Assembly (NCBI GenBank): GCA_030612725.1
Contig: JAUWNJ010000001.1
Span: 1-64,000 of the forward strand
Length of the DNA: 64,000 bases
Origin: Planctomycetales bacterium
GTDB taxonomy: Bacteria; Planctomycetota; Phycisphaerae; SM23-33
Direction: 5' to 3'
Shown: positions 1 through 63,770 of the stretch, one piece after another
How the letters are laid out: the number at the start of each line of letters is the position of its first letter
How positions within the stretch are numbered: position 1 is the first letter of the stretch
Program-made: the position numbers and the translations under genes
The notes under the pieces: generated by a model
What the model saw: the letters and a program-made list of their open reading frames with translations, nothing else
What the model was told of the DNA's origin: nothing
The model's database searches: none

Positions 1-195
1 TCATAGTCTGCTGTGTAAGGTATAAAAACCACGTGTATATCATCCGCCGTACTGTGTGTTTTAACAAAAACTCTGATCTGATGAGCCGCTCTGGGCTGCT
101 CCATAACAACGCTTATCTCATCTGGCGTGCTGGGCGGGTCCACAACAACGATCACCTCATCCGCCGCGCTGGGCGAGTACACAAAGCCGCCCTCG
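1..195. repeat. 39-bp tandem repeat inside the partial secreted-protein gene
   Basis: Plus-strand units begin with tcat or tgat at positions 1, 40, 79, 118 and 157, exactly 39 bases apart. Core similarity is strongest in the segment resembling tcatccgccgtgctgggcg. The period is a multiple of three and each unit adds 13 residues. The array continues beyond the left edge. Confidence 0.85.
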
Positions 196-686
196 CCGCC
201 GATGATCGTCGCCTGCGTGGTGTACACCGTACCTGATCCGTCGGCTACCCGACCGGTCATCGTTACTGTCTGGCCGGAAGCGACGACAATCTGCGCAAAC
301 AAAAAGTCCGTCGCCGTGATTTCAGACTTGAATCCCATCGCGCCGGCGAGGTGGTTGGCGCTTTCGTTGGGAACGATGGCCGTAAGCAGGTCGGCGTCGT
401 ACGGGAGGAAGTGCGAATCCCTTGCCCGGTCGTATTCGCTCAGATACAAGGCGTTTGTCAGCGTCGGCGTGGACAGCGCGCCGAAAGCCAGAACCTGGTT
501 CATAGGCCCGTCGAACGAGCCGTCCCAGGCGGTAGCCTTGTCGTCCTGCACGTCGGCCACGAGACGAACGCCGTAACTGTAAAGCCCATCGCCGAGGTCA
601 ACGCCGTCGTCTATCTCCACCCATAACTCCGCCTGGACGCTACCTGCAAGGGCCAACATTGAAATCAGTGGAAGCAGCAATTTCAT
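1..686 (-). CDS. PEP-CTERM-family-like secreted protein with 13-residue tandem repeats (partial, runs off window)
   Basis: Reading the minus strand from an ATG at 686-684, the frame stays open for 228 codons to the window edge, so the C-terminus is missing. It starts with a signal peptide (MKLLLPLISMLALAGSVQA). The next roughly 150 residues are nearly the same as the neighbour at 692-1579, including the motif DGSFDGPMNQVLAFGA. Similarity stops just after IIGGEGGF. From there the protein is degenerate 13-residue repeats (PSAADEVIVVVDP, PSTPDEISVVMEQ, PRAAHQIRVFVKT, HSTADDIHVVFIP), encoded by an exact 39-bp period. The alternating hydrophobic residues suggest one beta-strand per repeat. A PEP-CTERM anchor is inferred only from the paralogue. 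Function unknown; probably surface-exposed or exported. Confidence 0.75.
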   Translation of the reverse strand, partial: MKLLLPLISMLALAGSVQAELWVEIDDGVDLGDGLYSYGVRLVADVQDDKATAWDGSFDGPMNQVLAFGALSTPTLTNALYLSEYDRARDSHFLPYDADLLTAIVPNESANHLAGAMGFKSEITATDFLFAQIVVASGQTVTMTGRVADGSGTVYTTQATIIGGEGGFVYSPSAADEVIVVVDPPSTPDEISVVMEQPRAAHQIRVFVKTHSTADDIHVVFIPYTADY

Positions 687-691
687 CTTGA

Positions 692-1579
692 TCATTCCTT
701 TCTCCTACCGGCGGAGCGCCGGAGCAGAAGCAATGCTCCGGCTCCGAGCAGCGCCATGCAAGCCGGTTCGGGCGTGACATTGAACTGCATCAGTTCAGTT
801 GTGGGCATTGGACCTTCACCGCAAACCAGTTGTACCTTCTGCACGACGTACGTTCCAGGCAGGTCAGGGATGACGAAATCGAAGTCGGGGTCCCTTGAAC
901 GGAATACAATTGCCGCTCCCGGGCCTGCTTCGCCGCCGATGTACATGGTGTAGTGCCTGACGACCCAGTACTCCCAACTCGGATCGAGTCGGACGCCTTG
1001 GAACGATATGTCCTGCCCCGGATCCAGATCGAAGACCCCGTCCCCGTCGGGGTCATCACCTCCGTGGCTGCATGCGAATCCACCCTCGCCGCCGATGATC
1101 GTCGCCTGCGTGGTGTACTTGGTTCCGCTCTCGTCGGAAGCCTGCCCCGCCATCGTAACCGTCTGCCCCGATGCGACGACAATCTGGGCCAGCGAAAAGT
1201 CCATCGCCGTGATTTCAGGCTTGAATCCCATCGCGCCGGCGAGGTGATTGTCGCTTTCGTTGGGGGCGACGGCTGTAAGCAGGTCGGCGTCGTACTGGAG
1301 AAAGTGCGAATCCCTTGCCCGGTCGTATTCGCTCAGGTACGAGGCGTTTGTCAGCGTCGGCGTGGACAGCGCGCCGAAAGCCAGAACCTGGTTCATAGGC
1401 CCGTCGAACGAGCCGTCCCAGGCAGATGCCTTGTTGTCCTGCACGTCGGCCATCAGATGAACGGTATAACTGTAAAGCCCCTCGCCAAGGTCAACGCCGT
1501 CGTCTATCTCCACCCATAACTCCGCCTGGACGCTACCCGCGAGGCAGAGAAATCCGACTACCACCAGCAATTTTCTCAT
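692..1579 (-). CDS. PEP-CTERM sorting domain-containing secreted protein
   Basis: About 295 residues. I prefer the ATG at 1579 over an upstream in-frame GTG at 1588, because the ATG is followed at once by a signal peptide (MRKLLVVVGFLCLAGSVQA). The C-terminus has the PEP-CTERM layout: the motif TPEPA, a hydrophobic stretch (ALLGAGALLLL), then a basic tail (RRSAGRRKE). In this family the tail is the target of an exosortase; none is in this window. The middle holds a short Asp-rich DPDGDGVFDLD segment. The N-terminal half is a close tandem duplicate of the gene ending at 686. Ligand or function unknown; probably an extracellular or surface protein. Confidence 0.85.
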   Translation of the reverse strand: MRKLLVVVGFLCLAGSVQAELWVEIDDGVDLGEGLYSYTVHLMADVQDNKASAWDGSFDGPMNQVLAFGALSTPTLTNASYLSEYDRARDSHFLQYDADLLTAVAPNESDNHLAGAMGFKPEITAMDFSLAQIVVASGQTVTMAGQASDESGTKYTTQATIIGGEGGFACSHGGDDPDGDGVFDLDPGQDISFQGVRLDPSWEYWVVRHYTMYIGGEAGPGAAIVFRSRDPDFDFVIPDLPGTYVVQKVQLVCGEGPMPTTELMQFNVTPEPACMALLGAGALLLLRRSAGRRKE

Positions 1580-1714
1580 GGCCTGCACCTACCTTTCCGC
1601 TTATACTACCCCCTCGGTGGTGGGACAACCTTTTCTCTAGCCAGAGTTCCCCACCAGGTATATGACTATTATACTAAATTGCTCCCCATTATCCCAGACA
1701 AAAATCGTGGATAT

Positions 1715-4039
1715 TTATTCCATCTTTATCGCATCGGTTGGGCAAACTCTCATGCACGTTCCGCAGCGGATGCACTTTTCGGCGTCGATTTCGTGTTTCT
1801 CGTGCGGCTTCGGTTCGATGGCGTCGGCTGGACAGTGCTGGGCGCAGAGCGTACATCCGATGCAATCGTCGGTTATCACGTATTTTATCAGGTCTTTGCA
1901 CACCCCGGCGGGGCAGGAGCCGGCAAGGTGGGCTTCGTACTCGTCGCGGAAGTATCGCAGCGTCGAGAGGACCGGATTCGGCGCGCTTTTTCCAAGCCCG
2001 CAGAGGCTGGACTTGCCGACTGCATCGGCAAGGTGCTCCAATCTCTCCAGGTCGTCAGGCTGGCCTATGCCCGAGCAGATGCGGTCGAGTATATCGAGCA
2101 TTCGGCGTGTTCCGATTCGGCAGAAGGTGCACTTTCCGCATGACTGGTCCTGTGTGAACGCCAGGAAATATCGCGCGATATCGACCATGCAATCGGTCTC
2201 ATCCAGCACGACCAGCCCGCCCGACCCCATAAACGCCCCGCGGCTTCTGAGTGATTCGTAATCAATGGGCGTATCGGCCAATGACGCCGGGATACATCCG
2301 CCCGACGGTCCGCCTATCTGAACGGCTTTGAACTGCTTACCGTCGAGTATCCCGCCACCGATTTGCTCGACTATCTGGCGGATGGTGATCCCCATCGGCA
2401 CCTCGACGAGTCCGCCCCGGACGACCTTACCAGCCAGTGCGAATACCTTTGTACCCTTGCTGAGGTCCGTTCCCATAGCCGAAAAAGCCCCGGCTCCGTT
2501 ACGGATAATCCAGGGAACCATTGAGAATGTTTCAGTGTTGTTGACGAGGGTGGGTTTTGAGTTCAGCCCGCTTTGGGCTGGATACGGTGGTCGCGGGCGA
2601 GGCATCCCCCGCCGACCCTCGATGGACGCGATAAGGGCGGTCTCTTCGCCGCAGACGAACGCACCGGCCCCCGAAACAATCCGCAGATGCAGTTTCGGGC
2701 CAAGCAAATCCCGCCGCCGGCACTGTTCGATTGCGTCTGTCATTCGTTTTATCGCCAAGGGGTATTCGGCGCGGATATAGAAGATTCCCTCGTCTGCGCC
2801 GACGGCGTAAGCGGCGATGGTTACGCCCTCGATTATCCGATAAGGCTGGGATTCCAGCAGCAGGCGGTCCATGAACGCGCCGGGGTCGCCTTCGTCGCCG
2901 TTGCAGATGATGTATTTCTTCTCGCCGTGGGCCTGGCGGACATGGCGCCATTTCAGACCTGTTACAAAGCCCGCTCCGCCTCGACCTCGAAGCCCGCTGC
3001 GCGTAACCTCGTCAATAACCTGCTCGGGCGATAATTCGTCGGTGCATTTCCGCAAGGCCTCGAACCCGCCGCCGGAGATGTATTCGTCCAGGTCGGCCGG
3101 GTCGGCATAACTGGAATGCTCGGTGGCTATCCGCTTCTGCGGGCCGACAAACTCGGAAATAATCGCCTCGCGGACGTCTGTCGAATATCGCGTAACAGGC
3201 TCCCATGCGTCGTCGGTGAGAATGTTTTCGAGGATGTGCGATGCCGCCGTTTTGATTTTTCGCACGACCCCCCTCGGCCTGAAGTGTCGCAGGACGATTG
3301 CCTCGGCGTCTTCGGGTTTTACGCCCGCGTACAGGGCCGGCGGCTGTCCCGGCAGGGCGACCTCCACCAACGGCGTTATGTAACTCATGCCCGTGCATCC
3401 GACCCGCTTGACCATCGCGCGCGAGCCGGTTCTCGCCACAGCCTCACGCAACGCCTCATACACCGCGCCGCAACCGCGAGCGAGGCAGCAGGTATCGAGA
3501 CTGATGCGAATCTCCCCGTATTCGGCGCCGGCCTCGACGGGGCGGACCTTGCGACGAACCCGACGGGACTGAAGGTTCAGAAAATCCCGCACCGCATCCG
3601 CCGCAGTGTCACCAGCCAGGTGGCCATAGGTTACGTCGCCTATCTGAACCACCGGCGCGAGCGAGCAGCAGCCGAGGCAGGCGACCTTCTCGACGGTGAA
3701 AATTCCGGCATCGTCCGTATCGGCGTCTCCGGTAATGTCGAGATGTCGGCGGAATCCGTCGTGAACCGCGCCGGCGCCCTGTACGTGGCAGGCGGTTCCC
3801 ACGCAAACCCGGATTGTGTGCTTCCCCGCCGGTCGGTGGCGAAACTGCGTATAAAACGTCGAGACGCCCTCAATCCGGGCCGGCGTAATCTCACTAATCT
3901 CGCAGACCCGCTCCAGGGCCTCAGCCGGCAGGTAACGATAATGCTCCTGAATCGCCTGGAGGATCGGGATCACCGCGTCGGGTTCCCGCCCGATTCGCTC
4001 AATGAGAGAATCCACAAATGTCAAATCCGCCTGGTTCAT
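1715..4039 (-). CDS. HydC-HydB (NuoE-NuoF) fusion flavo-iron-sulfur protein, NAD(P)H-linked
   Basis: 774 residues. Residues 1-155 are NuoE/HydC-like with a thioredoxin-fold [2Fe-2S] set (C79, C84, C121, C125). Residues 175-255 are a second [2Fe-2S] thioredoxin-like domain (C184/185, C190, C215). Residues 290-700 are NuoF/HydB-like with the FMN/NADH motifs GRGGAGF (352-358) and NGDEGDPGAFMDR (380-392), then an N3-type [4Fe-4S] set C634, C637, C640, C680. The tail carries two ferredoxin motifs (C726/729/732/736 and C756/759/762/766). This is the cofactor layout of HydB plus HydC from bifurcating NADH-dependent hydrogenases, in one chain. No hydrogenase HydA or NuoG is nearby. Its ATG overlaps the stop of the upstream propeller gene by 4 nt. 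Expected cytoplasmic; partner unknown. Confidence 0.9.
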   Translation of the reverse strand: MNQADLTFVDSLIERIGREPDAVIPILQAIQEHYRYLPAEALERVCEISEITPARIEGVSTFYTQFRHRPAGKHTIRVCVGTACHVQGAGAVHDGFRRHLDITGDADTDDAGIFTVEKVACLGCCSLAPVVQIGDVTYGHLAGDTAADAVRDFLNLQSRRVRRKVRPVEAGAEYGEIRISLDTCCLARGCGAVYEALREAVARTGSRAMVKRVGCTGMSYITPLVEVALPGQPPALYAGVKPEDAEAIVLRHFRPRGVVRKIKTAASHILENILTDDAWEPVTRYSTDVREAIISEFVGPQKRIATEHSSYADPADLDEYISGGGFEALRKCTDELSPEQVIDEVTRSGLRGRGGAGFVTGLKWRHVRQAHGEKKYIICNGDEGDPGAFMDRLLLESQPYRIIEGVTIAAYAVGADEGIFYIRAEYPLAIKRMTDAIEQCRRRDLLGPKLHLRIVSGAGAFVCGEETALIASIEGRRGMPRPRPPYPAQSGLNSKPTLVNNTETFSMVPWIIRNGAGAFSAMGTDLSKGTKVFALAGKVVRGGLVEVPMGITIRQIVEQIGGGILDGKQFKAVQIGGPSGGCIPASLADTPIDYESLRSRGAFMGSGGLVVLDETDCMVDIARYFLAFTQDQSCGKCTFCRIGTRRMLDILDRICSGIGQPDDLERLEHLADAVGKSSLCGLGKSAPNPVLSTLRYFRDEYEAHLAGSCPAGVCKDLIKYVITDDCIGCTLCAQHCPADAIEPKPHEKHEIDAEKCIRCGTCMRVCPTDAIKME

Positions 4040-5769
4040 CGTTTCGCGTCGCTTATGCAGAACAGGTTCTTCTCGCTTCGTATGTAAATCCGCCCGTCCA
4101 TAAAGGCCGGAGTCGCGTAAACCTTTTCGCCCAAATCGGTCCGGGCGATTTCCTTATACTCCCTGGCCGCTTCAATGATGATCGTTACCCCGTCGATGCC
4201 GGTGAGGTAAATCTGCTCGCCTACCAGTACCGGCGAGGCGTTGAATTCCATATCCAGGTCCTTTTCCCAGACCGTCTTACCGGTTTGGGCGTCGTAGCAG
4301 GTCAGCGTTCCGTAGGTCTCCATCAGCCAGAGGAGTTTCCCGTCGCTGACGGGGCTGCAAATATCGGGAAGTCCGTCGATGGCCGTCCATGCGATGTGGG
4401 TTTTTGTAACGTCGCCGACTCCGTCGGGTTTGATAGCGGCCAGTACCGCGACGGTATTGACGGCGAAGACCATTCCGCCGGCGAAAATCGGGCACGGCGC
4501 GACGTCGCCGTCGAGACACTTCGCACGCCACAGTTCCGCCCCGTCGGCGGGGTTATAGGAAATCACCCACGGATTGCCGCAGGTGATTATCTGTGCGCGT
4601 CCGCCGGCGTTGATGACAATCGGCGAAGACCAGGATTCCGGCACGGGGCGGGGCTTCGACCAGACCTCCCGTCCCGTCAGACCGTCCAGGGCGATAATTT
4701 CTGATTTACCCTCTCCTTCCCCGCCCTGGTCGAATTTCACCAGCAGCAGGTTCCGCCACATCGCCAGCGACGTGGAGTGGCCATACATATTGACCGGCAG
4801 GCCGAGGTTCATCGCCCAGAGGCGCTCGCCGGCGAAATCGAAACATATCAAGTCGCCATTGGCGAATATCGCATATGCCCGCTGCCCGTCCGCGACCACA
4901 GTCGGCGCTGCGTATCCCGTATCTTCCATAACCACCGGCGGTTTTGCGACGCTGCCGGGAACGTTGGTTACATCCCGCTGCCACAGCAATTCGCCCGAAT
5001 CGGCGTCGAAGCAATACACCTGGCGTTTGTCCTTCGTCGCGCCGGTCAGGAAGATGCGATTACCCCAGACGACCGGAGAGTTTTTCCCCGGCAGCGGAAC
5101 CGGCGTTTTCCAGAGGATTCCCTCGCCGGTTTTTCCGTTCCAATTCGCCGGTACGTTTGTATATGCCGAAATTCCCAACCCGCCGGGTCCGCGAAATCGA
5201 GGCCAGTTCCTGCCGATTTCCTCATCCGATGGGAAATGAACAACCAACGAAGGCGGTTTTTCGACATGCTTGATAGCAGTGGGAAAACCCTCTGTCGGCG
5301 TGATAAAGGTCAGGGCCGTCGCGCCGCCGAGAATCACCAGCCCCATTGCCGCTACCGACCAACGGGCAAACGTGCCTGCGCGAACCTCCGCTAGTTCCTG
5401 ATCGCCCGCCGGCGCGGGGGCCGAAATTGTCTTGCGACAACCGACAGCCGCCCCAACCGACACCAGCAGAACCACAATACCGCCAAGCAACAGCCATCCG
5501 CCACGAACTCCGAACGCCTGGGAGCGGAAATACTCCCGCCTCAACTCCAAATCCATCCGCCGGACTTCGCTCTTGAGTTGCTCATCGTCGGGATAGGCCT
5601 GCAATTTGGCTTTGAGCGCCACGAACTGCTCGGAGTCCAGCGGGTCGGAGACGTCGCTGTGAAAATAGTTTTGGATAAGCCCAGCGCAGACAATCACGCA
5701 AAAGGCGCCCGCAACGACAGCGCACGCCACGCTCGCGCGATACCGGATGTCCGTGCCGGATGCGTTCAT
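4036..5769 (-). CDS. Membrane-anchored PQQ-like (BamB-type) beta-propeller protein
   Basis: 577 residues. Three hydrophobic segments lie at about 12-32, 90-110 and 137-157, with a charged region between the first two. A C-terminal propeller follows, starting at the WPRFRGP motif (189-195) that opens many planctomycete PQQ-like proteins. The blades show repeated patterns such as GELLWQRDV, GREVWSKPR and GKTVWEKDL. No PQQ-dehydrogenase active-site set was recognised, so a scaffold or sensor role is as likely as an enzyme. The gene overlaps the polyferredoxin upstream and the HydC-HydB fusion downstream by 4 nt each, implying translational coupling. The propeller probably faces the periplasm (inference). 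Confidence 0.85.
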   Translation of the reverse strand: MNASGTDIRYRASVACAVVAGAFCVIVCAGLIQNYFHSDVSDPLDSEQFVALKAKLQAYPDDEQLKSEVRRMDLELRREYFRSQAFGVRGGWLLLGGIVVLLVSVGAAVGCRKTISAPAPAGDQELAEVRAGTFARWSVAAMGLVILGGATALTFITPTEGFPTAIKHVEKPPSLVVHFPSDEEIGRNWPRFRGPGGLGISAYTNVPANWNGKTGEGILWKTPVPLPGKNSPVVWGNRIFLTGATKDKRQVYCFDADSGELLWQRDVTNVPGSVAKPPVVMEDTGYAAPTVVADGQRAYAIFANGDLICFDFAGERLWAMNLGLPVNMYGHSTSLAMWRNLLLVKFDQGGEGEGKSEIIALDGLTGREVWSKPRPVPESWSSPIVINAGGRAQIITCGNPWVISYNPADGAELWRAKCLDGDVAPCPIFAGGMVFAVNTVAVLAAIKPDGVGDVTKTHIAWTAIDGLPDICSPVSDGKLLWLMETYGTLTCYDAQTGKTVWEKDLDMEFNASPVLVGEQIYLTGIDGVTIIIEAAREYKEIARTDLGEKVYATPAFMDGRIYIRSEKNLFCISDAKR

Positions 5770-43073: not shown

Positions 43074-43200
43074 GCGGAACGACAAGCCCCTTGCACTGCA
43101 AGGGGATGTCCGGCATCTGTCCGGCATCATCCCCTTGCAGTGCAAGGGGCTTGTCTGTCCGGCATCATCTCCTTGCAGTGCAAGGGGCTTGTCGTTCCGC
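43074..43200. repeat. Three-unit palindromic repeat between recA and alaS
   Basis: The palindrome ccccttgcactgcaagggg at about 43087-43104 recurs as ccttgcagtgcaagggg near 43131 and 43170, joined by tgtccggcatc words. The whole block is also an inverted repeat with ends gcggaacgacaagcc and ggcttgtcgttccgc. Confidence 0.85.
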
Positions 43201-63661: not shown

Positions 63662-63770
63662 TTTCCCAATTGTTCCCAATCGTTCCCAATCGTTCCCAAT
63701 TGTTCCCAATCGTTCCCAATCGTTCCCAATCGTTCCGAATTGTTCCGAATTGTTCCGTTTCGTTCCCCAG
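63662..63770. repeat. Decamer tandem repeat (ttcccaatcg)
   Basis: About ten copies of a 10-bp unit close to ttcccaatcg, with t/c variation in the eighth and ninth bases, in strict register. On the minus strand this gives a 10-residue repeat in an otherwise doubtful frame. Confidence 0.85.

Follow-up and report, generated by a model that had tools for sequence, protein, structure and literature searches.

PEP-CTERM proteins have been described as exopolysaccharide associated and probably extracellular, and the PEP-CTERM/exosortase sorting system is known in Planctomycetes (PMC1569441). Our survey of the literature on PEP-CTERM proteins with tandem repeats or cohesin yielded nothing directly on point. 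In some bacterial surface proteins, tandem repeats that lie within the gene and preserve its reading frame form VNTR stalks. We analyzed a 64,000-nucleotide stretch of DNA from a Planctomycetales bacterium (hereafter the window), for which an earlier note had described two tandem PEP-CTERM–type paralogues, one with its C-terminal half exchanged for 39-bp repeats. The repeat-bearing gene is very probably an ordinary gene for a repeat-spaced PEP-CTERM surface protein that sits beside a diverged duplicate and has been split by the assembly.

The two genes, designated A and B, form a tandem pair on the minus strand and overlap by ATGA. Gene A (positions 3–695) is open at the window edge, and its 5' portion encodes a putative signal peptide (MKLLLPLISMLALAGSVQA, recognized by eye from the sequence), an N-terminal domain (N-domain), and the start of a repeat array. 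Its start codon is located either at 695, in the ATGA overlap with the stop codon of gene B, or at 686. Gene B (692–1588, minus strand) encodes a 298-residue paralogue with the same N-domain, an unrelated tail, and a PEP-CTERM–like end that scored 14.9 bits, below the Pfam cut-off of 20.7. The N-domain blocks of gene A (184–651) and gene B (1077–1544), both on the minus strand, are 468 bp in length, share 89% DNA identity, and end at IIGGEGGF, in agreement with the description of two tandem paralogues that are alike up to this motif. The upstream neighbour of gene B is a NuoE/NuoF-like gene (1715–4039, minus strand) with the Pfam domains Complex1_51K and 2Fe-2S_thioredx.

Base 1 of the window is also base 1 of its contig (C31 of the genome G000), and gene A runs off this contig partway through the 39-bp array. 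Further array units stand at the end of C20, a second contig of G000, where they lead into a tail and then a PEP-CTERM anchor (28.6 bits versus a cut-off of 20.7), with a nuoG-like gene beyond. Read on the minus strand, the array at this end proceeds as ...VDPPSGADEASVV VDPPSTADEVIVV VDPPSAVDEISVV and then gives way to the tail and anchor. We infer the join between C31 and C20, which is bridged by neither a read nor a contig. An intact gene was found in a single relative, Planctomycetales bacterium CSMAG_1454 (G001), which belongs to the same genus as the window's genome, and a search of genome contigs with this intact gene returned G001's own record as the sole match. On contig C19 of G001, a nuoF-like gene, a single gene for a protein of 319 amino acids, and a nuoG-like gene follow one another. 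The 319-residue protein consists of a signal peptide, the N-domain, four 13-residue repeats, a similar tail, and a PEP-CTERM anchor (27.0 bits versus 20.7), with its repeat-plus-tail segment being 61% identical to that at the C20 end. C19 aligns to C31 in its first part (92.8%) and to C20 past the gene (91.5–92.9%). In two further members of the genus, G002 and G003, the nuoF-like gene directly adjoins the nuoG-like gene, with the site being empty of the cassette. Given that array, tail, and anchor are present on C20 and that the gene is intact in G001, gene A is most likely a single gene split by an assembly break and, to the extent that the join of C31 and C20 holds, most likely carries a PEP-CTERM anchor. 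The odd-tailed copy is gene B, not the repeat-bearing gene A, and gene B is a tandem, diverged duplicate with another tail. Contig C19 of G001 (L030) also contains, at about 4090–4341, a MITE- or REP-like insert of ~250 bp with inverted-repeat ends of the TTAGCCCACGGC...GCCGTGGGCTAA type, which is missing at the same place in C20 of G000 and in G002.

The exact 39-bp repeats reported to follow IIGGEGGF in gene A are indeed present. TRF detected the period at 85–184, and the period continues without insertions or deletions all the way to base 1; 39 bp correspond to 13 codons, and the unit is 13 residues long. Two more reliable units, VYSPSAADEVIVV and VDPPSTPDEISVV (105–182, minus strand), are of a type also found on C20 and in G001, and they differ from the reference unit by six (unit 1) and two (unit 2) bases. 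Two other tandem repeats were observed in the window, one at 43116–43193 (38 bp, 2.1 copies, 97% matches) and one at 63663–63767 (10 bp, 10.5 copies). A comparison of copy number among relatives revealed a difference between two species, with four units in G001 and at least five to six distinct more reliable units in G000 (C31 and C20 together). Among the reliable units of G000, 24 nonsynonymous versus 5 synonymous differences were counted over six pairs (pN of 0.136, pS of 0.087), and the units of G001 differ by five nonsynonymous and no synonymous changes over three pairs. For positive selection these events are too few, and with numbers this small neutrality could not be rejected in either genome. 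We detected no RVT_1 match in the G000 genome, which is 96% complete, and the handful of nearby genes inspected included no recombinase. A diversity-generating retroelement (DGR) was rejected as the source of variation on the basis of the missing reverse transcriptase, and neither it nor the recombinase suspected nearby was borne out. In a weakened version, the proposal of recombination or diversification survives: copy number, the mostly nonsynonymous unit differences, and the mosaic structure of the G001 gene described below are in its favour, whereas replacement of the anchor and the DGR have fallen away.

Within the window alone, gene A shows no anchor, an observation consistent with the earlier reading that the gene lost its C-terminal half and anchor and acquired a diversifying repeat domain in their place. 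The gene seems to lack the usual end, however, because the window starts at a contig edge inside the array. With array, tail, and anchor located on C20, and with repeats and anchor together in the G001 gene, such a loss is extremely improbable; what appeared to be an exchanged C-terminal half is truncation by the contig edge. The apparent swap at the C-terminus is for the most part an assembly artefact, and the repeats are a predicted spacer ahead of the anchor, not its replacement. A further claim, that the unit sequences vary at many positions, draws largely on bases 1–104 (minus strand; units 3 and 4 and part of unit 5), a divergent contig-tip stretch that is probably of low quality; the more reliable units closest to the N-domain and to the tail are 2–6 bases away from the reference unit. 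In the tip stretch, the sequence departs from that unit at 40 of 104 positions (12 of 39, 13 of 39, and 15 of 26 in units 3 to 5, respectively). Real tip units would imply strong protein-level diversification inside the array, possibly through selection, a scenario that we consider quite unlikely. It is favoured by the AT-rich tip of C31 retaining its frame and 39-bp period over 104 bases without a stop, by the changes in this tip being fewest at codon position 2 (15, 7, and 18 at positions 1, 2, and 3, respectively), and by the reliable units likewise differing mostly nonsynonymously. Stops were likewise absent, however, in 41% of cases when these substitutions were placed at random, and protein similarity (BLOSUM) was not better than that for random placement (P = 0.32). 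Divergence from the reference unit also climbs towards both tips, with C20 units differing by 4, 13, and 20 bases in that direction; GC content drifts in opposite ways, down to 0.35 on one side and up to 0.85 on the other; unit 3 on the C20 side contains an in-frame TAG; and artefacts occur at further contig tips of the assembly. The units in the window thus probably owe most of their apparent divergence to contig-tip noise. That the tip units represent a real hypervariable segment between a fixed N-domain and the anchor, with paralogues recombining N-domains and tails, is very doubtful. Elsewhere in G000, poly-C/poly-G runs are present at or near the left tips of C5, C12, C17, and C20 (L077, L084, L089, and L092, respectively), suggesting that low-quality read ends were retained by the assembler. 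At the tip of C11 (L083, 12–119), a 24-bp tandem repeat decays towards the end in a pattern like that of C31 and C20.

In G001, the gene combines segments of both G000 paralogues in a mosaic, with a 5' stretch like that of gene B and a 3' stretch like that of gene A. It matches gene B in the upstream region, the signal peptide, and the first informative sites (nine of nine), and it matches gene A in the last part, the repeats, and the tail, with interleaving in between. A single switch, at its best fit, accounted for 38 of the 46 sites, with a permutation P of 0.0004. Recombination of tandem copies, by fusion or conversion, would explain this single mosaic gene. The event may have been a fusion in G001 or a gain in the window's lineage, and G002 and G003 have no gene at the site. 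It is possible, albeit not the reading that we favour, that the ancestor had a single G001-type gene and that an insertion or duplication in the window's genome added another N-domain, together with a tail and a signal peptide. Such a gain predicts the same mosaic pattern, and no outgroup with a copy at the site polarizes the change, but it requires a donor with the tail of B and the signal peptide of A, whereas fusion in G001 through one deletion between repeats is a single step. It is unlikely that the mosaic arose during assembly as a chimera of similar paralogues. The G001 genome is indeed a metagenome-assembled genome of about 460 contigs and 77% completeness, with a k141 contig name indicative of a k-mer assembler, but genes A and B of G000 are identical over at most 82 consecutive bp, less than k = 141, the switching between A-like and B-like sites is interleaved, and contig coverage is given as 68.8.

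The N-domain comprises ~150 residues and defines a small family. It showed no match in Pfam at threshold, none in NCBIfam at cut-off outside the anchor, and none in the PDB (best E = 1.4). Its sequence pattern raised a cohesin-like fold as a candidate, and an AlphaFold model obtained from three sequences was too poor for use (mean pLDDT of 31.9). Elsewhere in this genome and in related ones, the family's N-domain and anchor either lack a spacer or are accompanied by a PKD-like segment (25.6 bits, slightly below the 27-bit cut-off) or a dockerin, with the surroundings of the N-domain therefore being modular. The genome contains two exosortases (PF09721), on C63 (191.6 bits) and C23 (184.3 bits). 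Judged from its sequence, the gene A product most likely belongs to the cell surface or matrix and has a spacer of variable length. It would be exported as an exopolysaccharide-associated PEP-CTERM protein composed of the signal peptide, the N-domain, a spacer of Pro/Asp/Glu/Val-rich 13-residue repeats, a short tail, and the anchor, and would be sorted by an exosortase. Spacer length may shift by in-frame slippage or unequal recombination, and recombination between tandem copies may have given rise to the G001 gene. The assembler would have been unable to cross the 39-bp array, leaving gene A on two contigs. What remains after the contig-edge effect is ordinary. The case carries a caution: assemblies break at tandem repeats, and a gene followed as far as the end of a contig may mimic one with a replaced end. 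It also makes a small biological point: the locus is a modular surface-protein cassette within a NuoEF/NuoG-like cluster, found in two of the four congeneric genomes, and its spacers vary in length and type.

Among known systems, the likeness to diversity-generating retroelements consists in a variable C-terminal region, as the earlier note proposed, but here no reverse transcriptase was found and the variation lies between units of the array and at the ends of contigs. With VNTR-stalk surface proteins, the locus shares a period that is a multiple of three, a Pro- and acid-rich unit, and a copy number that differs between species, although the comparison here is between two species, with one genome each. 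With PEP-CTERM/exosortase (EpsH) surface proteins (PF07589, TIGR02595), it has in common the C-terminal anchor and the two exosortases of the genome, along with a putative signal peptide, and the anchors on C20 and in G001 exceed both the Pfam and NCBIfam cut-offs. It differs from them in that its N-domain belongs to no Pfam or NCBIfam family and in that 13-residue repeats are positioned ahead of the anchor.
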